Assembly (NCBI GenBank): GCA_016794595.1
Contig: JAEUJN010000008.1
Coordinates: 248,001-312,000, forward strand
Length of the DNA: 64,000 bases
Direction: 5' to 3'
Source: Kineosporiaceae bacterium
GTDB lineage: Bacteria > Actinomycetota > Actinomycetes > Actinomycetales > Kineosporiaceae
The notes under the pieces were generated by a model that was not told the origin of the DNA, searched no databases, and saw nothing but the letters and a program-made list of their open reading frames with translations. This document shows positions 18,525-48,529 of this stretch, piece after piece. The position numbers were made by a program, and so were the translations under genes. Within the stretch, counting starts at the first letter, position 1. Every line of letters begins with the position of its first letter.

Positions 18525-18662
18525 CTGCGGAGCCGCTCGCCATGCTCCGCAGCCGCCAGCCGCGGCGTCCGCTTCATGGCTTTTCGGGTGGTCCTGCCGC
18601 GTCCCCTGCGGAGCACGAGTCGTCCGCCACGGAGCATGAGCAGGTTGGGTGGGGGGGTGGGG
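18525..18662. repeat. Palindromic intergenic repeat, copy A
   Basis: In the gap between convergent mpa and an ABC permease gene. It has a local hairpin CTGCGGAGC / GCTCCGCAG (18525-18552) and two right-hand units: CTGCGGAGCACGAG (18606-18619) and ACGGAGCATGAGCAGGTTGG (18629-18648). The second is almost identical to the right arm of copies B and C. A G-rich tail follows (GGG-T-GGGGGGG-T-GGGG). The left arm is degenerate. No gene is seen in 18400-18662. Confidence 0.65.
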
Positions 18663-39567: not shown

Positions 39568-39596
39568 TGACGTCACCGGGTGGACCGGGGACGTCA
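39568..39596. terminator. Bidirectional stem-loop between convergent genes
   Basis: TGACGTCACCGG and CCGGGGACGTCA pair over 12 positions with one mismatch around a 5-nt loop. It sits in the 61-nt gap between helY and the convergent exonuclease gene; the right arm includes that gene's stop codon. Confidence 0.55.
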
Positions 39597-40550
39597 GCGC
39601 TGGGTCAGGGCCGTCACCAACCGGGCCACCGGCGAGTCCAGGTTCCAGCGGGCAGCGAAGTCCACCAGGGCCGCGTGGTCGACCGGGGTGGTCCGGAGCC
39701 TGTCCTCCGGCTCGGGCAGGGCGGCATCGCGGACCACGTCGACAACCGTCGGCGCGACCTCCAGGTACTCACCGGCCTCCAGCAGCCGTCTCCGGACAGC
39801 GGGGGACAGGTCACTGGCCGGTGCGGACGCCGCGGCCCGCACGCTCGCCAGGTCGCGGTAGCGAGCGATCAGGGAGGCGGCCGTCTTCTCGCCGATCCCC
39901 GGCACTCCCGGCAGGCCGTCGCTCGGGTCCCCGCGCAGGGCAGCCATCGCGGCATACCCCGCGCCGTCCGCCACGCCGTACCGTTCGGCGAGCCGCGCCT
40001 GGTCGACCTCCTCCAGGTTGCGCACGCCCTTGCCGGTGTAGAGCACCCGGACCACCCCGGCGTCGTCGATCAGCTGGAAGAGGTCGCGGTCACCGGTGAC
40101 CACGTCGACATCGGCGAGGCCGCCCGCGGCCCGGGATCGGCTCACCTCCCGGGTGGCCAGGGTGCCGATCACGTCGTCCGCCTCGAGTCCCTCACCACCG
40201 AGCCGGGCGATGCCCAGCAGGGCCAGCGCCTCGGCGATCACCGGTACCTGGACCTCGAGGTCATCGGGGGTCTGTTCGACGTCCGGCCCGGCCGTCGGCT
40301 GAACCGGCGCCAGCCGGTGCGCCTTGTAGGAGGGGATGGCGGCCACCCGGAACGCCGGCCGCCAGTCGTCGTCCCAGCAGGCGACGAGACGCTCCGGACG
40401 TCGGCGGGTGATCAGCGTGGACAGCATGTCCAGGAAGCCACGCACCGCGTTGACCGGGGTGCCGTCCGGAGCCGTGATCGGCTCCTTCACCCCGAAGAAG
40501 GCCCGGAAGTACAGCGAGGCCGAATCCACCAGCATCAGGCGACCCGTCAT
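39594..40550 (-). CDS. 5'-3' exonuclease/flap-nuclease domain protein
   Basis: 318 aa. Related to the N-terminal nuclease domain of DNA polymerase I without the polymerase: LMLVDSASLYFRAFFG, WDDDWRP-R (metal site), LGIARLGGEGLEADDVIGTLA, VDVVTGDRDLFQLI and the helix-hairpin-helix GDPSDGLPGVPGIGEKTAASLI. Cuts 5' flaps or single strands in DNA repair or RNA-primer removal. Leaderless start at ATG 40550 with TACGCT 6 nt upstream. Confidence 0.9.
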   Translation of the reverse strand: MTGRLMLVDSASLYFRAFFGVKEPITAPDGTPVNAVRGFLDMLSTLITRRRPERLVACWDDDWRPAFRVAAIPSYKAHRLAPVQPTAGPDVEQTPDDLEVQVPVIAEALALLGIARLGGEGLEADDVIGTLATREVSRSRAAGGLADVDVVTGDRDLFQLIDDAGVVRVLYTGKGVRNLEEVDQARLAERYGVADGAGYAAMAALRGDPSDGLPGVPGIGEKTAASLIARYRDLASVRAAASAPASDLSPAVRRRLLEAGEYLEVAPTVVDVVRDAALPEPEDRLRTTPVDHAALVDFAARWNLDSPVARLVTALTQR

Positions 40551-40556
40551 CGGGGC

Positions 40557-40562
40557 AGCGTA
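40557..40562 (-). promoter_or_regulatory. TACGCT -10 box of the exonuclease gene
   Basis: Minus-strand TACGCT, 6 nt before ATG 40550. It shares bases 40561-40562 with the divergent -10 box of the Lrp gene. Confidence 0.55.
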
Positions 40563-40566
40563 GTGT
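40561..40566 (+). promoter_or_regulatory. TAGTGT -10 box of the Lrp/AsnC gene
   Basis: TAGTGT, 7 nt before GTG 40574. Overlaps the opposite-strand TACGCT box by two base pairs, so both promoters cannot be occupied at once. Confidence 0.55.
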
Positions 40567-40573
40567 TCCGGCC

Positions 40574-41032
40574 GTGGAGGAGATGGATCGGCAGCTGGTG
40601 CACCTGCTCTCCCGGGACGGGCGGATGAGCTTCACCGACCTCGGCAGGGCCACCGGACTGTCGACGTCCGCCGTCCACCAGCGGGTGCGCCGGCTGGAAC
40701 AGCGAGGAGTGATCCGTGGCTACACCATCCTGGTCGACCCGGAGGCGCTCGGCCTGCCGTTGACCGCCTTCGTGTCCGTCACCCCGCTCGATCCGGCCGC
40801 ACCGGACGACGTCCCGGACCGGCTGGCCACGCTGCCCGAGATCGAGGCCTGCCATTCGGTGGCCGGCGCCGACAACTACATCCTCAAGGTGCGGGTGGCG
40901 ACCCCGGGCAGTCTGGAGGGCCTGCTCACCCGCATCCGGGCGGCGGCCGGGGTGGCCACCAAGACCACCGTGGTGCTGTCCACCCCCTTCGAGGGACGCC
41001 CGATCCCCACCGGCGAGGGCGAGAACCCCTGA
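40574..41032 (+). CDS. Lrp/AsnC-family transcription regulator
   Basis: 152 aa. N-terminal helix-turn-helix (MDRQLVHLLSRDGRMSFTDLGRATGLSTSAVHQRVRRLEQRGVI, positions 4-47) and a C-terminal RAM ligand-binding domain with EIEACHSVAGADNYILKVRV. Such proteins sense amino acids. It lies 2.5 kb from the kam genes, so regulation of lysine catabolism is a reasonable but untested guess. Confidence 0.92.
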   Translation: MEEMDRQLVHLLSRDGRMSFTDLGRATGLSTSAVHQRVRRLEQRGVIRGYTILVDPEALGLPLTAFVSVTPLDPAAPDDVPDRLATLPEIEACHSVAGADNYILKVRVATPGSLEGLLTRIRAAAGVATKTTVVLSTPFEGRPIPTGEGENP

Positions 41033-41062: not shown

Positions 41063-41172
41063 CACCAACCTGCTCATGCTCCGCAGGTGACGCGTCATCT
41101 CGGCGATGTGCCTGACTTGTGCGGTGGCCACGGAGTATGGCGGGCCGGCTGCGGAGCATGAGCAGGTTGGTG
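41063..41172. repeat. Palindromic intergenic repeat, copy B (best copy)
   Basis: Perfect 24-bp arms at 41063-41086 and 41149-41172, each with the core CTCATGCTCC / GGAGCATGAG and outer ACCAACC / GGTTGGT. The 62-nt centre holds a partial internal unit (ACGGAGTATGG). It lies between the Lrp gene and the membrane-protein gene. Confidence 0.85.
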
Positions 41173-42081: not shown

Positions 42082-43530
42082 TCAGGCGCCGTCGATCCCG
42101 GAGCGCACTCGGGCACGCCACCACCGCTGCCCCTCGGCCGGCAGGGTGTCCACCGGGTCGTAGTAGGGGTAGGTGCGGGCCAACGCCTCCGGGTCGTCGG
42201 TCTCGAGCGAGGTGCGGTAGTTCTTGGTCCACTGCGAGATGCCGCGCACCGGGTCGTGGGAATGCGCCTGGTGCACCCACCGCTTGCCGACGAAGGGGAC
42301 GTCGCAGACGATCCGCGGGGTCGCGAACCCGGGCAGGTACCCCATGATCCCGTGCTGCAGCTCCTGGGCGTGGCGCAGGCTCACCCGCCAGTGCTCACTG
42401 TTGGGGATCAGGTCGCACATGTAGAAGTAGTACGGGGTGATCATGGCGCCGTCCTGCAGGGCGAAGCACAGGTCGAGCAACTGGTCGACCTCGGAGTTGA
42501 CCCCGCGCATCAGCACCCCCTGATTGCGGACGTCACGCACCCCGGCCGCCAGCATCGCCCCGGCAGCCTCGGCGACCAGGGGGGTCACCGATGCAGCGGT
42601 GTTCACGTGCGTGTGCACGGCCAGGTTCACGCCCCGGGACCGGGCGGTGGTCGCGACCCGGGCCACCCCCTCCACCACGTCAGGCTGGAGCCAGTGCTGG
42701 GGCAGCCCCATCAGGGCCTTCGTGGCCAGGCGGATGTCCCGGATCGTCTCCAGCTCGAGCAGCCGCATCACGAAGGACTCGAGCGTTCGCCACGGCATGT
42801 TGGCCACGTCGCCGCCGGAGACCACGACATCGCGCACCTGGGGGGCCGACCGCAGATAGGCGATCATGGCGTCGGCCCGGTCGACCGGCTTGAGGTCGAA
42901 CCTCAGCTTGGTCACCTGCTCGGTGGAGTTGCCCACCAGGTCCATCCGGGTGCAGTGACCGCAGTACTGCGGGCAGGTGGGCACCATCTCGGCCAGCACC
43001 TTGGTGGGGTAGCGGTGGGTGAGCCCCTCGGCCACCCACATCTCGTGCTCGTGCAGCGAGTCGCGACTGGCGAAGGGGTGCGAGGGCCAGGCCGGGTGCC
43101 GATCCGAGAACACCGGCAGCATGTACCGGCGCACCGGATCGGAATGGAACGCAGCGGTGAACGCCGGACCCCCGGCGGGCATCGCCCCGGCTGTCGAGGG
43201 CACCATGGTGTTGATCATCTGCGGCGGGATCAGCATGGACATCGTGGCCCGCTCGGCCTGGTCGCGCTCGAGGTCGGCGTAGAAGTCGTCGTCCACCAGA
43301 TCACCCAGGACTGCGCGCAGCTGGGGGAGGTTCTTCACACAGTGAGCGCGCTGCCACTGGGCGCTGCGCCACTGGTCGCCGGTGACGTCACGCCACCCGG
43401 GGAACCGTCGCCAGTCGGGCTCGACCAGCTCAATCCGGCGGTATACGTACGGTTGAGGGCCACAACCGTGCACAGAGTCCTTCGCGCCGGCACCCCGGGG
43501 GGTGGGAAGGCCCGTCGTAGTCTGAGTCAT
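42082..43530 (-). CDS. kamA: Lysine 2,3-aminomutase (KamA family radical SAM enzyme)
   Basis: 482 aa. Converts L-lysine to L-beta-lysine with a 4Fe-4S cluster, AdoMet and PLP. Radical SAM motif CPQYCGHC (C186, C190, C193), followed by the expected VVVSGGD. The PLP lysine is probably K416 in VPFVGK. D373 (YMCDL) and D410 (VCDVP) are spaced 37 residues apart, exactly as the two aspartates that hold the substrate epsilon-amine in clostridial lysine aminomutase. This argues for lysine over glutamate as substrate. ATG 43530 is preceded by TACAGT at 8 nt. Divergent from kdd. Confidence 0.88.
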   Translation of the reverse strand: MTQTTTGLPTPRGAGAKDSVHGCGPQPYVYRRIELVEPDWRRFPGWRDVTGDQWRSAQWQRAHCVKNLPQLRAVLGDLVDDDFYADLERDQAERATMSMLIPPQMINTMVPSTAGAMPAGGPAFTAAFHSDPVRRYMLPVFSDRHPAWPSHPFASRDSLHEHEMWVAEGLTHRYPTKVLAEMVPTCPQYCGHCTRMDLVGNSTEQVTKLRFDLKPVDRADAMIAYLRSAPQVRDVVVSGGDVANMPWRTLESFVMRLLELETIRDIRLATKALMGLPQHWLQPDVVEGVARVATTARSRGVNLAVHTHVNTAASVTPLVAEAAGAMLAAGVRDVRNQGVLMRGVNSEVDQLLDLCFALQDGAMITPYYFYMCDLIPNSEHWRVSLRHAQELQHGIMGYLPGFATPRIVCDVPFVGKRWVHQAHSHDPVRGISQWTKNYRTSLETDDPEALARTYPYYDPVDTLPAEGQRWWRARVRSGIDGA

Positions 43531-43538
43531 GCAACCCG

Positions 43539-43544
43539 ACTGTA
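43539..43544 (-). promoter_or_regulatory. TACAGT -10 box of kamA
   Basis: Minus-strand TACAGT, 8 nt before ATG 43530; leaderless kamA transcript predicted. Confidence 0.5.
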
Positions 43545-43547
43545 CGG

Positions 43548-43587
43548 GAGATTCTTCCGTTCTTCGAGCTACTCGCCGTAGAATCTC
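43548..43587. promoter_or_regulatory. kdd promoter (TAGAAT) and possible operator in the kamA-kdd gap
   Basis: TAGAAT (43579-43584) is the likely -10 box for kdd, with a leader of about 25 nt carrying GAGGAGGAG. An inverted repeat GAGATTC (43548-43554) / GAATCTC (43581-43587) overlaps it, and TTCTTC occurs twice 8 nt apart between the arms. These could bind a regulator of the divergent pair. Confidence 0.45.
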
Positions 43588-43615
43588 TGGTCTGAGCTCC
43601 ACTGAGGAGGAGAAC

Positions 43616-44710
43616 ATGGTGGACGTCGGGACCCTGGTCGCAGGTGTCAGCTCCCCGGTGGGACTGCACCGGGTGCTGGAGCCGCTCGGCGTCCTGCCGC
43701 AGGCCGCCTGGCGCCTGGACGCCTCGCCCGCACTGTTCGCCGACGAGGTCCGGGTCAGGGTCGAACGGCTCAACCTGGACGCCGCGAGCTTCAGACAGCT
43801 GTGGGATCGCCACGGGGGGGACGGCGAGGCCGTCCGGGCCGAGGTCGCCCAGATCATCAGCACCCGGGGGAAGATGCACAACCCGGTCACCGGCTCCGGA
43901 GGGATGCTCGTCGGCACGGTGGAGGAGGTCGGGCCGGACAGCCGGCTGGGCCTGGCGCCCGGGGACCGGATCGCCACCCTGGTCTCCCTCACCTTGACCC
44001 CGTTGGCGATCACCGACGGTCTGGCCGCCTGGGACGGGCGTGGCGAACAGGTGCCGTGCACCGGGCACGCGATCCTGTTCGGCCGCTCGATCGCGGCCCA
44101 CCTGCCCGCGGACCTGCCTGCGGAACTCGCGCTGGCGGTGATGGACGTGTGCGGCGCACCGGCCCTCACCCACCGGGTGGTGGCCCGCTACGTCGCCCAG
44201 GGGCGCCCCCCGGTGGTGGCCGTGATCGGGGGGGCCGGCAAGAGCGGCTCCCTCGCCCTGGCCGCCGCCCGCCGAGCCGGGGCGGCACGCACCATCGGCG
44301 TGGTCCCCCTTCCCTCCGAGCGGGAACAACTGACCCGCGCCGAGCTGGCCGACGCCGTCGCGCTCGCCGACGCCAGGGATCCCGTCGCCCTGGCGGGAGC
44401 GGTGGCCGCGGCCGGAGGGCCGGCGGACATCACGATCGTCTGTGTCGACGTCCCCGGGTGCGAGCACGGGGCGATCCTGGCCACCGCCGACCTGGGCACG
44501 GTGATCTTCTTCTCGATGGCCACCTCGTTCGCCACCGCGGCGCTGGGGGCCGAGGGACTGGCGGCCGACGTCCAGCTGCTGATCGGCAACGGCTACGCGG
44601 CCGGCCACGCTGATTTCGCACTCGACGTCCTGCGCTCCTCACCCGGCGCCCGGGGGCTGTTCGAGGCCCGCCTGGCCAGCCACGCCGGCGCAGTCCACCC
44701 CCCGCGATGA
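43616..44710 (+). CDS. kdd: L-erythro-3,5-diaminohexanoate dehydrogenase
   Basis: 364 aa. Oxidative deamination of 3,5-diaminohexanoate to 3-keto-5-aminohexanoate with NAD(P). Recognised by length, the medium-chain-dehydrogenase-like fold with VAVIGGAGKSGSLALAAARRAG (nucleotide loop) and its kam neighbours; segments GKMHNPVTGSGGML and LLIGNGYAAGHADFAL are typical. ATG 43616 follows GAGGAGGAG; the longer upstream frame is rejected. Confidence 0.88.
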   Translation: MVDVGTLVAGVSSPVGLHRVLEPLGVLPQAAWRLDASPALFADEVRVRVERLNLDAASFRQLWDRHGGDGEAVRAEVAQIISTRGKMHNPVTGSGGMLVGTVEEVGPDSRLGLAPGDRIATLVSLTLTPLAITDGLAAWDGRGEQVPCTGHAILFGRSIAAHLPADLPAELALAVMDVCGAPALTHRVVARYVAQGRPPVVAVIGGAGKSGSLALAAARRAGAARTIGVVPLPSEREQLTRAELADAVALADARDPVALAGAVAAAGGPADITIVCVDVPGCEHGAILATADLGTVIFFSMATSFATAALGAEGLAADVQLLIGNGYAAGHADFALDVLRSSPGARGLFEARLASHAGAVHPPR

Positions 44711-44721
44711 CCACCCCTGAA

Positions 44722-44849
44722 CCCCACCCGAACCCGCTCATGCTCCCCAGCCGACCCGTCGTGCTCCCCGGCCGACGGCTATCGCAACCCCTGCGGAGCA
44801 TGGGCGTGACACCTGCGGAGCATGAGCGGGTTGGGGTGGGGTGTGGGGG
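44722..44849. repeat. Palindromic intergenic repeat, copy C, with G4 motif
   Basis: Arms of 29 bp at 44722-44750 and 44813-44841 match at 27 positions and contain the same core as copy B. Two further internal units (GTGCTCCCCGG near 44761, CCTGCGGAGCATGGG near 44790) make four core-like units in total. The right end runs into GGG-TT-GGGG-T-GGGG-TGT-GGGGG (44828-44849), a canonical G-quadruplex pattern. Lies between convergent kdd and plsC. Confidence 0.8.
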
Positions 44850-44889
44850 AGGTCGGCGCGGGGGAGGCCGGCGCGGGCTGGGGTGGCGG

Positions 44890-45576
44890 TCAGGCCTCGG
44901 ACTCGGCCGGCGGTTCGTTGTAGGCGTGCGCGAGTTCCTGGGGCGACATCGCGGCGATCCGGGCCATGACCGCCTCGGTGATCTCGCGACGGGCCTTGCC
45001 TGCGCCTCCCGAGGTGGCGACCGCGGCGATCCACGGTGCCGGGTCGATCGGCTCACCGACGCTGACCCGTACCGGGTGCGGCCGGGGCACCCGGGCGCCG
45101 ATCGGCTGCACCTGGTCGGTGCCGATCAGGGCCACGGGGACGACGGGAGCCCCCGACTCCAGCGCCAGCCAACCCACCCCGGTGCGGCCCTGGTAGAGCC
45201 GCCCGTCCCGGGAGCGGGTGCCCTCCGGGTAGATGCCGAACGCCGTCCCCTCCGCCAGCACGTCCATGGCCAGGCGCAGCGAGGCCATGGCGTTGCGCTG
45301 GCTGTCCCGGTTGACCGGCACGGCATCGACGGCGGTGAAGAAGGTGCGGTTGACCCAGCCACGTACCCCAGTGCCCTCGAAGTACTCCGCCTTGGCCAGG
45401 AATCGCACCCGACGTGGAACCACCAGCGGGATCACCACGCTGTCGATGAAGCTCAGGTGATTGCTCGCGATGATGACCGGACCCTGGGCCGGGATGTGCT
45501 CCAGACCGGTGACCTTCGCGCGCCAGACCAGGCGGAAGATCGAACCCAGCAACCACCGGGCGACCAGGTAACCCAC
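44890..45576 (-). CDS. 1-acyl-sn-glycerol-3-phosphate acyltransferase-like protein
   Basis: 228 aa. PlsC domain with NHLSFID (the H-x4-D catalytic motif) and YPEGTRSRDG (substrate motif), plus PVVPVALIGTDQV. One N-terminal membrane-associated helix. Acylates a lipid precursor at the membrane. It interrupts the lysine gene cluster on the opposite strand and has no obvious link to it. GTG 45576 has GGAGGTG upstream. Confidence 0.9.
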   Translation of the reverse strand: MGYLVARWLLGSIFRLVWRAKVTGLEHIPAQGPVIIASNHLSFIDSVVIPLVVPRRVRFLAKAEYFEGTGVRGWVNRTFFTAVDAVPVNRDSQRNAMASLRLAMDVLAEGTAFGIYPEGTRSRDGRLYQGRTGVGWLALESGAPVVPVALIGTDQVQPIGARVPRPHPVRVSVGEPIDPAPWIAAVATSGGAGKARREITEAVMARIAAMSPQELAHAYNEPPAESEA

Positions 45577-45689
45577 CGCACCTCCAGCTCACCCACCGGC
45601 GGCGCCCGCCGGGCGGCCCACACCGAACCGAGGCGAACTGTACTGGGCGTGCCGCCGTGGATCGGGTCTTCTCCGGCGCAGACCATTTG

Positions 45690-45714
45690 CCACTGAACGA
45701 TTTCCACTGAACGG
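45690..45714 (+). promoter_or_regulatory. Direct repeat in the kamD leader
   Basis: CCACTGAACG occurs twice with a 14-nt period, ending 21 nt before the kamD ATG and just before its ribosome site. Possible operator or RNA element. The rest of the 159-nt plsC-kamD gap shows an ACTGTAC core also present upstream of kamA. Confidence 0.4.
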
Positions 45715-45735
45715 ACTCCCCGAGAGGAGAGATCG

Positions 45736-47310
45736 ATGTCTCGCCGTCCCACGGTGATCGAACTCGACCGCGCCGACACCCGTCGTGCCCGCACCCTGGC
45801 GCGTCGAGCCGGGGCGCCCGTCGTCCGGATCGCCCGCACCCACACCACCGTGTCGGTGGAGCGGGCCACCGTGCGGTTGGCGGGGCTCAGCGGAGCCGAC
45901 AGCGAGCGCGTGCCCTGGGTCAACCACCTGGTGGACGCCGTACGGGCCCAGACCGGACTCGCCCACGGCGTCGCCCTACCGGTGTGGGACGCGCTGGCCC
46001 GGGGGGAGGGTGAGGACCTGCTGACCCTGGCCCAGAAGGCCTCGGCCGGTTCGGTGACCTTCCGCCTGCCCGAGGGGCGCGAGGCGAGCCGCGCGGGGCG
46101 GGCCGCGCGAGCGGCGGTCAGCGTCGGCGTCCGGCGCATCGATCGGGCGCGCGCCCAACGGGACCGGCTCATCGCCCGGTTGGGGGACGCGCCTCGCCGG
46201 CCGTGGATCTACCTGATCGTGGCCACCGGCGACATCTACGAGGACGTGGTCCAGGCGCAGGCGGCAGCTCGTGCCGGGGCCGACGTGATCGCGGTGATCC
46301 GCTCCACCGGGCAGAGCCTGCTCGACTACGTCCCCGAGGGCGCCACCCGCGAGGGCTATGCCGGCACCTATGCCACGCAGGAGAACTTCCGCATCATGCG
46401 GGCCGCCCTGGACGAGGTGGGACGCGAGCTGGGCCGCTACGTCCGGCTCACCAACTATGCCTCGGGCCTGTGCATGCCCGAGATCGCCGCCCTGGCCGGT
46501 ATGGAACGGCTGGACATGATGCTCAACGACTCCATGTACGGCATCCTCTTCCGCGACATCAACCCGATCAGAACCTTTGTGGATCAACGGTTCTCCCGTC
46601 AGATCCACGCCCGCGCCGGGATCATCATCAACACCGGCGAGGACAACTACCTGACCACCGCGGACGCCGTCGAGGCCGCCCACACGGTCACCGTCAGCCA
46701 GCTGCTCAACGAGTACTTCGCGGCCGAGGCCGGGCTCGCCCCCTGGCAGATGGGCCTGGGGCACGCCTTCGAGATCGACCCCTCGATCCCGCAGTCCTTC
46801 CGGCTCGAGCTCGCCCACGCGCTGCTGGCCCGGACGCTGTTCCCGGACGCCCCGCTGAAGTGGATGCCGCCGACCAAGCACATGACCGGCGACATCTTCC
46901 GCGGCTACCTGCTGGACGGGTTCTTCAACCTGGCCGGTGCCCTGACCGGCCAGGGGATCCTGCTGGTCGGGATGATGACCGAGGCCGTGGTCACGCCGTG
47001 GCTGTCCGACCGTGATCTGGCCCTGCAGAACGTGCGCTACGTGCTGGACGCCTGCTCGGGCCTGGACGAGGACTTCCACCCCCCGGCCGGCGGCTTCATC
47101 GCCACCCGGGCCCGAACGGTGCTGGCCGAGGCGATCGAGTTGCTGGAACGCATCGCGGACGACGGCCTGCTGACCGCCATCGGCGAGGGCACGTTCGGCC
47201 TGATGCGGCGTCCGGCCGACGCCGGCAAGGGCCTGGACGGCGTCGAGCAGCGAGCTCCCGGCTACCTCAACCCCGCGATCGACCTGCTCGAGGAAGGAGC
47301 CACCCGATGA
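45736..47310 (+). CDS. kamD: Beta-lysine 5,6-aminomutase alpha subunit
   Basis: 524 aa. Large catalytic (TIM-barrel) subunit of the adenosylcobalamin- and PLP-dependent enzyme that moves the terminal amino group of beta-lysine or D-lysine. Recognised by YLIVATGDIYEDVVQAQAAARAGADVIAVIRSTGQSLLDYVP (positions about 155-197), the GATREGYAGTYATQENFRIMRAAL segment and MPPTKHMTGDIFRGYLLDG. GAGAGGAGAG ribosome site. ATGA overlap with kamE. Confidence 0.95.
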   Translation: MSRRPTVIELDRADTRRARTLARRAGAPVVRIARTHTTVSVERATVRLAGLSGADSERVPWVNHLVDAVRAQTGLAHGVALPVWDALARGEGEDLLTLAQKASAGSVTFRLPEGREASRAGRAARAAVSVGVRRIDRARAQRDRLIARLGDAPRRPWIYLIVATGDIYEDVVQAQAAARAGADVIAVIRSTGQSLLDYVPEGATREGYAGTYATQENFRIMRAALDEVGRELGRYVRLTNYASGLCMPEIAALAGMERLDMMLNDSMYGILFRDINPIRTFVDQRFSRQIHARAGIIINTGEDNYLTTADAVEAAHTVTVSQLLNEYFAAEAGLAPWQMGLGHAFEIDPSIPQSFRLELAHALLARTLFPDAPLKWMPPTKHMTGDIFRGYLLDGFFNLAGALTGQGILLVGMMTEAVVTPWLSDRDLALQNVRYVLDACSGLDEDFHPPAGGFIATRARTVLAEAIELLERIADDGLLTAIGEGTFGLMRRPADAGKGLDGVEQRAPGYLNPAIDLLEEGATR

Positions 47311-48098
47311 GCACGCCCGCGATCACGAGCACCGCCGCAGCCGGCGGGTCTCGCATCATCCGCCCCTACGGCGACACCACCGGGGACGGCATGGTGCAGC
47401 TCTCGTTCACCCTGCCCGTGCCGGCCGGCAAGAAGGCCGAGGGCGCCGCGCTGCAGCTCGCCCGGTCCATGGGCATGGATCCGGCGATGGTCGTGCACGC
47501 CCGGGCGATGGGGGAGGGGTACACGTTCCTCGTGCTCTACGGGCGGGTGAACCACCTGATCGATCTGGACGCCGTGCAGGTGACCGAGCGCGAGTACCCG
47601 CTGCTGTCGGCCAAGGAGATCAACGCGGCGATCCGTTCGCGGCTGCGGCGCAAACTGGTGGTGGTCGGCGCCTGTATCGGCACCGATGCCCACACGGTGG
47701 GGATCGACGCCATCCTCGACATCAAGGGCTTCGCCGGCGAGAAGGGGCTCGAGTACCACCGCGAGATCGAGGTGCACAACCTCGGCGCCCAGGTGCTGGT
47801 GCCCCAGCTGGTCGAGCAGGCGCTGGCGCGGCGAGCGGACGCCGTCCTGGTCTCGCAGGTGGTGACCCAGCGCGACGCGCACCTGCACAACACGCGTGAG
47901 ATGGCGGCCGCCTTCCGCGAGGCCTACCCGGCGGCCTCCCGGCCCCTGCTGGTGGTCGGTGGCCCGCGGTTCGACGAGGGAGCCGCCGCCGAGTTGGGAG
48001 TCGACCGGATCTTCGGCAAGGGCACGACGCCCTCCGAGGTGGCCTCCTACCTGGTGCACGCCCTGCTGCCGGCCCGTCCCTCGCGCAGGTCGGCGTGA
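47307..48098 (+). CDS. kamE: Beta-lysine 5,6-aminomutase beta subunit
   Basis: 263 aa. Carries the B12-binding Rossmann domain with D127-x-H129-x2-G132 in GTDAHTVGID and the probable PLP lysine K140 in DIKGFAG. VLVSQVVTQRDAHLHN and VVGGPRFDEGAAAELG follow, as in clostridial KamE. Overlaps kamD upstream (ATGA) and kal downstream (GTGA). Confidence 0.95.
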   Translation: MSTPAITSTAAAGGSRIIRPYGDTTGDGMVQLSFTLPVPAGKKAEGAALQLARSMGMDPAMVVHARAMGEGYTFLVLYGRVNHLIDLDAVQVTEREYPLLSAKEINAAIRSRLRRKLVVVGACIGTDAHTVGIDAILDIKGFAGEKGLEYHREIEVHNLGAQVLVPQLVEQALARRADAVLVSQVVTQRDAHLHNTREMAAAFREAYPAASRPLLVVGGPRFDEGAAAELGVDRIFGKGTTPSEVASYLVHALLPARPSRRSA

Positions 48099-48529
48099 AC
48101 GCCGGGTCCGCGGGCGCCGATCCTCGCCTCGGCCTGTCCGTGAGTCACCGCCGCTACGTGCCCTACAGCCATGCTCACTACGCCGGGAACCTGGTCGACG
48201 GTGCGTACAGCCTGGCCTGCTTCGGTGACGTGGCCACCGAGGTCTGCATCCGCACGGACGGCGACGAGGGACTGTTCGCCTCCTACTCCGAGGTGGTCTT
48301 CCACGCGCCCGTGCGCGCCGGTGACGTGCTGGAGGTGACCGCGACGGTGGTCCGGGTCGGACGGCGCAGCCGGGAGCTGGAGTTCACTGCGACCGTGCTG
48401 TGCCGGGGGAGGGCAGGGTGCGAGGACGCCGCCCCGGACGGCCCCGCACCGGGGGCCGCGGACGTGCTCGACCCGCCGATCCTGGCCACCAGCGCCCGCG
48501 GGACGGTCGTGGTGCCGGCCCGCGGCTGA
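48095..48529 (+). CDS. kal: 3-aminobutyryl-CoA ammonia-lyase
   Basis: 144 aa single hot-dog domain. Eliminates ammonia from 3-aminobutyryl-CoA to give crotonyl-CoA, the step after Kce cleavage. YVPYSHAHYAGNLVDGAYSLACFGDVATE and FASYSEVVFHAPVRAGDVLEV match this family. A 20-residue Ala/Pro-rich insertion lies near residue 110. GTG 48095 overlaps the kamE stop, so the three genes are co-translated. Confidence 0.88.
   Translation: MNAGSAGADPRLGLSVSHRRYVPYSHAHYAGNLVDGAYSLACFGDVATEVCIRTDGDEGLFASYSEVVFHAPVRAGDVLEVTATVVRVGRRSRELEFTATVLCRGRAGCEDAAPDGPAPGAADVLDPPILATSARGTVVVPARG

Follow-up and report, generated by a model that had tools for sequence, protein, structure and literature searches.

A gap of 23 nt separates two divergent genes of a Kineosporiaceae bacterium. 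It raises the question of how two promoters could be accommodated there and whether transcription in one direction bears on the other. The window, meaning the whole stretch of DNA analysed, is 64,000 nucleotides of contig JAEUJN010000008.1, and positions are counted from its first base. The minus strand gene (39594-40550) encodes a 5'-3' exonuclease/flap endonuclease of the FenA-like type (PF02739, PF01367) with a predicted leaderless start at 40550. Its closest solved structures were PDB 6c33-6c36 (best E 1.8e-85), which we take to be M. smegmatis FenA. The plus strand gene (40574-41032) encodes an LrpA-like regulator of the Lrp/AsnC family (PF13404, PF01037) with a predicted leaderless start at 40574. 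Its closest solved structures were PDB 2qz8/2vbw (E about 6e-43), presumably M. tuberculosis LrpA, Rv3291c. The family profiles confirmed as real genes the exonuclease-like and Lrp reading frames named in an earlier, sequence-only reading of this DNA. A FenA crystal paper is cited in the reference list of PMC11551767.

Just 3' of lrp, at 41063-41172, lies an inverted repeat with 36-nt arms that are 86% complementary, 38 nt between the arms and a fold z-score of -5.1. A paired copy of its core is located near C38:131171-131256, and single arms are located near window positions 18630 and 44813. Since the core recurs at these further sites, the repeat has the appearance of a small dispersed hairpin element.

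The intergenic gap and its -10 boxes

Positions 40548-40576 read CAT-CGGGGCAGCGTAGTGTTCCGGCC-GTG, in which CGGGGCAGCGTAGTGTTCCGGCC is the 23 nt separating the ATG of the nuclease gene (minus strand, 40550) from the GTG of the Lrp gene (plus strand, 40574). The -10 box of the nuclease gene, TACGCT, occupies 40557-40562 on the minus strand, 6 nt upstream of the ATG. That of the Lrp gene, TAGTGT, occupies 40561-40566 on the plus strand, 7 nt upstream of the GTG. The two have the TA at 40561-40562 in common. The sequence-only reading had given both boxes, the common TA, the 6-7 nt between box and start and the 23 nt between the start codons, and all of these were exact. At the shared TA, -12/-11 of each promoter pair with -11/-12 of the other in a 23-bp register, and the key -10 positions (-12/-11) overlap reciprocally on the two strands as in a bidirectional promoter. 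The two box spacings and the 23-nt gap together imply a 2-base overlap by arithmetic, and TA is self-complementary. The overlap is therefore little independent surprise.

With the last T of each box set at -7, transcription is predicted to start at 40550 on the minus strand and at 40573, one base 5' of the GTG, on the plus strand. The start-to-start distance predicted from boxes and starts is 23-24 bp. This falls within the definition of bidirectional promoters given by Warman, Grainger and colleagues, which requires divergent starts on opposite strands to be separated by 7-25 bp (PMC10268837, available text). Among such distances 18 bp is the most frequent, and 10 and 23 bp are frequent too (PMC12825309, available text). 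A sigma-70 consensus scan of the region found no -35/-10 pair, which is what -10-only actinobacterial promoters would be expected to show. In the available text of PMC3160421, PMC3898074 and PMC6448022, actinobacterial leaderless promoters have TANNNT about 12 nt before the start codon and those of M. tuberculosis have no -35 motif. The leaderless share is put at about 20-25% of genes or transcripts in these sources, and at about a fifth of actinobacterial genes in PMC3160421.

Leaderless usage was assessed on one 364-kb contig with 318 gene calls from a simple home-made gene caller, the starts being uncurated. TANNNT preceded the start by 6 or 7 nt in 20/92 divergent-side genes and in 15/107 tandem genes with gaps >40 nt. 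The background was six matches over 35 offsets (10-44 nt) in the same 92 divergent-side genes, or ~0.002 per gene and offset. By this comparison each box taken singly is far beyond chance, and TACGCT and TAGTGT occupy the two leaderless offsets (6 and 7 nt) that are enriched on their own contig. The contig has 46 divergent pairs. Both genes had TANNNT at 6-8 nt in five of them, and both had NANNNT in seven. Boxes overlapped in two of the 46, the nuclease/Lrp pair and one pair with a gap of 19 nt. The latter, at G000:C38 39930-39950, has the boxes CACGCT/TAGCGT fused in an 18-bp register.

Conservation of each box

The order-level Lrp set comprised 30 loci including that of the source genome. 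Twenty-two had ≥65% identity and an alignment beginning at the first residues, and 17 of these had ATG/GTG at residue 1; the remaining five were left out of the box count. TANNNT was present 6-8 nt before the Lrp start in all 17 assessed loci (shuffle mean 0.2). It was also present in 80/80 named loci (shuffle mean 1.5), which were mostly Streptomyces and had 46 different upstream sequences among them. The box TAGTGT follows this rule, as it matches TANNNT and precedes a conserved ATG/GTG by 6-8 nt.

On the nuclease side, NANNNT was found 6-7 nt before an in-frame ATG/GTG in 29/30 orthologue loci, the source genome included (shuffle mean 2.6, maximum 7), and TACGCT at 6 nt is of this leaderless type. 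Strict TANNNT preceded the nuclease start in only 5/30. The box in relatives is mostly CAGGAT, with C at -12, across families (orthologue loci L160-L189), unlike the general TANNNT. Given these two observations the sigma factor and the strength of the nuclease box are uncertain. The T at -12 of the nuclease box here coincides with the TA common to the Lrp box.

TANNNT is a loose motif, and the boxes might be AT-containing hexamers that arose by chance and do not serve as promoters. This is very improbable, as the background is ~0.002 per start and offset and both boxes are strongly conserved. The earlier view that the gap holds two overlapping leaderless-type -10 boxes, with both start codons read correctly, gains support from the offset enrichment and from the conservation of each box. 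Two leaderless promoters, with predicted 5' ends, are likely here.

Overlap of the boxes among relatives

The nuclease and Lrp genes were divergent and adjacent or near in 16 genomes (the source genome, 14 others and G044). The boxes overlapped in one of the 16, the source genome. The start distances implied by the boxes were 24 (source genome), 32, ~38 (G044, where the Lrp start is uncertain), 39 and 67, followed by eight at 125-164 and by 516, 1263 and 1301 bp. The shared-box pattern, with the codons of the Lrp start directly after it, was found in 2/297 genomes of the order, the source genome and G049, and G049 had no detected Lrp match. A second case of a 23-nt gap (G050, L006/L173) was rejected: the nuclease gene there has CAGGAT 6 nt before a GTG located 9 nt further in, which leaves the boxes separate. 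Each box is conserved singly, and the overlap is confined to the source genome among the relatives examined.

The nuclease gene was divergent from the Lrp gene in 15/21 other order-level loci. Among the 80 named loci, 79 had no nuclease gene detected in the 3 kb around the Lrp gene, a few of them being truncated at contig ends. A conserved close divergent partner, as in an autoregulated pair, was sought beside the Lrp gene, and the nuclease gene was not one, with start distances of 32-1301 bp and this absence from named loci.

The sequence-only reading had held that the overlap forces mutually exclusive transcription of the two genes. Simultaneous binding at the two boxes would indeed be excluded, but the claim about transcription was overstated. 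Five E. coli bidirectional promoters showed no competition at basal activity, and repression occurred only under strong activation in one direction (PMC12825309, available text), so mutually exclusive transcription goes beyond what the layout gives. The reading had added that Lrp could control both genes.

Joined together, these claims describe a regulatory switch, in which nuclease and Lrp transcription exclude each other because of the overlap and Lrp, bound at the gap, sets the balance. The boxes do physically overlap, and Lrp-family proteins often act on adjoining divergent promoters. Activation in one direction can also repress the other at bidirectional promoters, whereas basal competition was not seen in E. 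coli (both from the available text of PMC12825309). Between 40500 and 40640 only inverted repeats of 6-10 nt were found and no convincing operator-like palindrome, in a search for inverted repeats. The overlap in 1/16 genomes with the pair, and the pattern in 2/297 genomes of the order, the second without a detected Lrp match, also argue against a switch, which we consider unlikely. Lrp control of both genes was likewise unsupported, given the lack of a convincing palindrome, the single overlap among 16 genomes and the absence of the nuclease gene within 3 kb in 79/80 named loci.

Shared -10 boxes in other genomes

The layout was surveyed in 58 genomes, none of which is listed as the same genus as the source. 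The pattern CAY-N6-ANNNTANNNT-N6-RTG gave 69 sites in 37/58 genomes. The control with one spacer lengthened by 3 gave 66 sites (31+35), and the control with both spacers lengthened by 3 (9/9) gave 24 by hand count. If each site held at most one real promoter, ~42 sites would be expected against the 69 observed (P about 8e-5). Compared with the unsubtracted one-sided control of 66, the 69 were not significant (P 0.37). A clear enrichment (262 counts vs 90 with both spacers +3) was considered and rejected, since the one-sided control attributes most of it to single leaderless promoters. A reversed-pattern control was nearly equal to the shared-TA pattern (221 vs 262 counts). Sites in the 18-bp register numbered about 44 vs 13, as hand counts without a one-sided control. 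Coding-like frames flanked both sides, by a loose rule, in 10 of the 30 sites retrieved from the 69.

Separate head-to-head boxes 0-30 nt apart were found 258 times in the 58 genomes vs 21 in the double-shifted control, and head-to-head leaderless promoters are therefore common. The fused, shared-TA form probably makes up a genuine, if modest, part of them. One shared-TA divergent pair recurred almost unchanged in three genomes of a single genus, g14 (L143, L145 and G054:C1:2709915), and the two loci retrieved had coding-like frames on either side. It is possible that this pair is a conserved bidirectional leaderless promoter.

The survey also bears on whether the Lrp promoter alone is active. 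In that case transcription of the nuclease gene would begin within lrp, or its translation would begin at the later ATG at 40535, and TACGCT would be a passenger of the Lrp box. Chance together with one-sided leaderless promoters accounts for ~42/69 shared-TA sites in the 58 genomes, and the strict TANNNT is rare in nuclease relatives (5/30). Against this, 29/30 nuclease orthologues have NANNNT 6-7 nt before the start, and the box here lies at exactly 6 nt. A lone Lrp promoter is accordingly improbable.

A candidate target of the Lrp-family regulator

A lysine-degradation cluster headed by kamA lies beside the Lrp gene, at 42082-48529 of the window. Its members are a KamA-like protein, kdd, lysine 5,6-aminomutase alpha and beta, and 3-aminobutyryl-CoA ammonia lyase. 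The KamA-family radical SAM protein (lysine 2,3-aminomutase-like; 42082-43530, minus strand) matched TIGR00238/TIGR03820 below the cut-off with E about 1e-38, and its start at 43530 was placed by eye. L-erythro-3,5-diaminohexanoate dehydrogenase, the product of the lysine degradation gene kdd (43616-44710, plus strand), matched NF052381 above the cut-off. By eye, a leaderless-type TACAGT is visible 8 nt before the ATG at 43530 of kamA, facing kdd, and a Shine-Dalgarno-like AGGAGGAG is visible before the ATG at 43616 of kdd. An acylglycerol-phosphate acyltransferase-like gene (44890-45576) also sits within the cluster.

In 12/21 other order-level loci kamA adjoined the Lrp gene and was on the strand opposite to it. 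Within the order the nuclease gene (15/21) is no rarer as an Lrp neighbor than kamA. It is disfavored as an Lrp target because its distance is very variable and because it is absent beside Lrp in named loci. In mycobacteria lrpA adjoins lat, the lysine aminotransferase gene, and LrpA is reported to be able to bind upstream of lat (PMC4726150, PMC3898074, available text). The locus here is similar in having an LrpA-like regulator beside a lysine-degrading enzyme gene. It differs in that the lysine gene is kamA-like and is accompanied by kdd and lysine 5,6-aminomutase genes. As kamA recurs beside Lrp and is metabolically plausible, and as mycobacterial lrpA adjoins lat, kamA or lysine catabolism would be a more sensible candidate than the nuclease gene for control by Lrp.

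Discussion

We conclude that the nuclease/Lrp gap is probably a compact bidirectional promoter, its register being 23 bp and leaderless mRNAs being predicted in both directions. RNA polymerase with the housekeeping sigma factor would load either way round on ANNNTANNNT (40557-40566). Transcription would start on or within one base of both start codons, giving a leaderless mRNA for the FenA-like 5' nuclease on the minus strand and another for the LrpA-like regulator on the plus strand. The gap may have shrunk in this lineage until the boxes met at the self-complementary TA. Two polymerases at once should be impossible on the overlapping boxes through steric exclusion, and at basal activity there would probably be little interference between the directions. 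The motifs and their positions, the conservation of each box and the confinement of the overlap to the source genome were observed directly. The second overlapping pair on the same contig (18-bp register, gap 19) counts in favor of a bidirectional promoter. The modest cross-genome excess of shared-TA sites and the mostly CAGGAT box of nuclease relatives count against it.

The nuclease/Lrp promoter is an ordinary case of an already known promoter kind. Like the 23-bp register of Warman and colleagues it has opposite-strand -10 elements with common bases, paired -12/-11 positions of both promoters and starts predicted 23-24 bp apart. Unlike those promoters, which in the available text of PMC12825309 and PMC10268837 are from E. 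coli and Salmonella with mapped starts, both starts here are predicted and leaderless. The divergent M. tuberculosis genes prpD (Rv1130) and Rv1129c are both leaderless, and closely juxtaposed divergent promoters are called common there (Cortes et al. 2013, PMC3898074). That pair resembles the present one in having a regulator and an enzyme gene head to head, both leaderless (here by prediction). It differs in its genes, and overlap of the -10 boxes is not stated in the available text of PMC3898074. The published actinobacterial TANNNT leaderless promoters also differ, being described for single genes in the text available. A literature search for leaderless promoters together with bidirectional or overlapping divergent ones found, in the texts available, no paper on bacteria that takes leaderless bidirectional promoters as its subject, which is weak evidence of absence.

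A wider proposal is that the shared-TA head-to-head fusion is recurrent and selected in leaderless-rich actinobacteria, that start-codon spacing alone reveals a two-way promoter, and that fusion gave the nuclease box its TA in place of the CA of CAGGAT. This is tentative and on balance doubtful. The 23-nt gap, which contains hardly anything besides the two boxes, is a minimal test object for two-way promoters. For the question of whether overlap couples expression, relatives that have this gene pair with its boxes apart offer natural controls. The finding also points to start-codon spacing as a possible sequence-based predictor of bidirectional promoters in genomes rich in leaderless genes.
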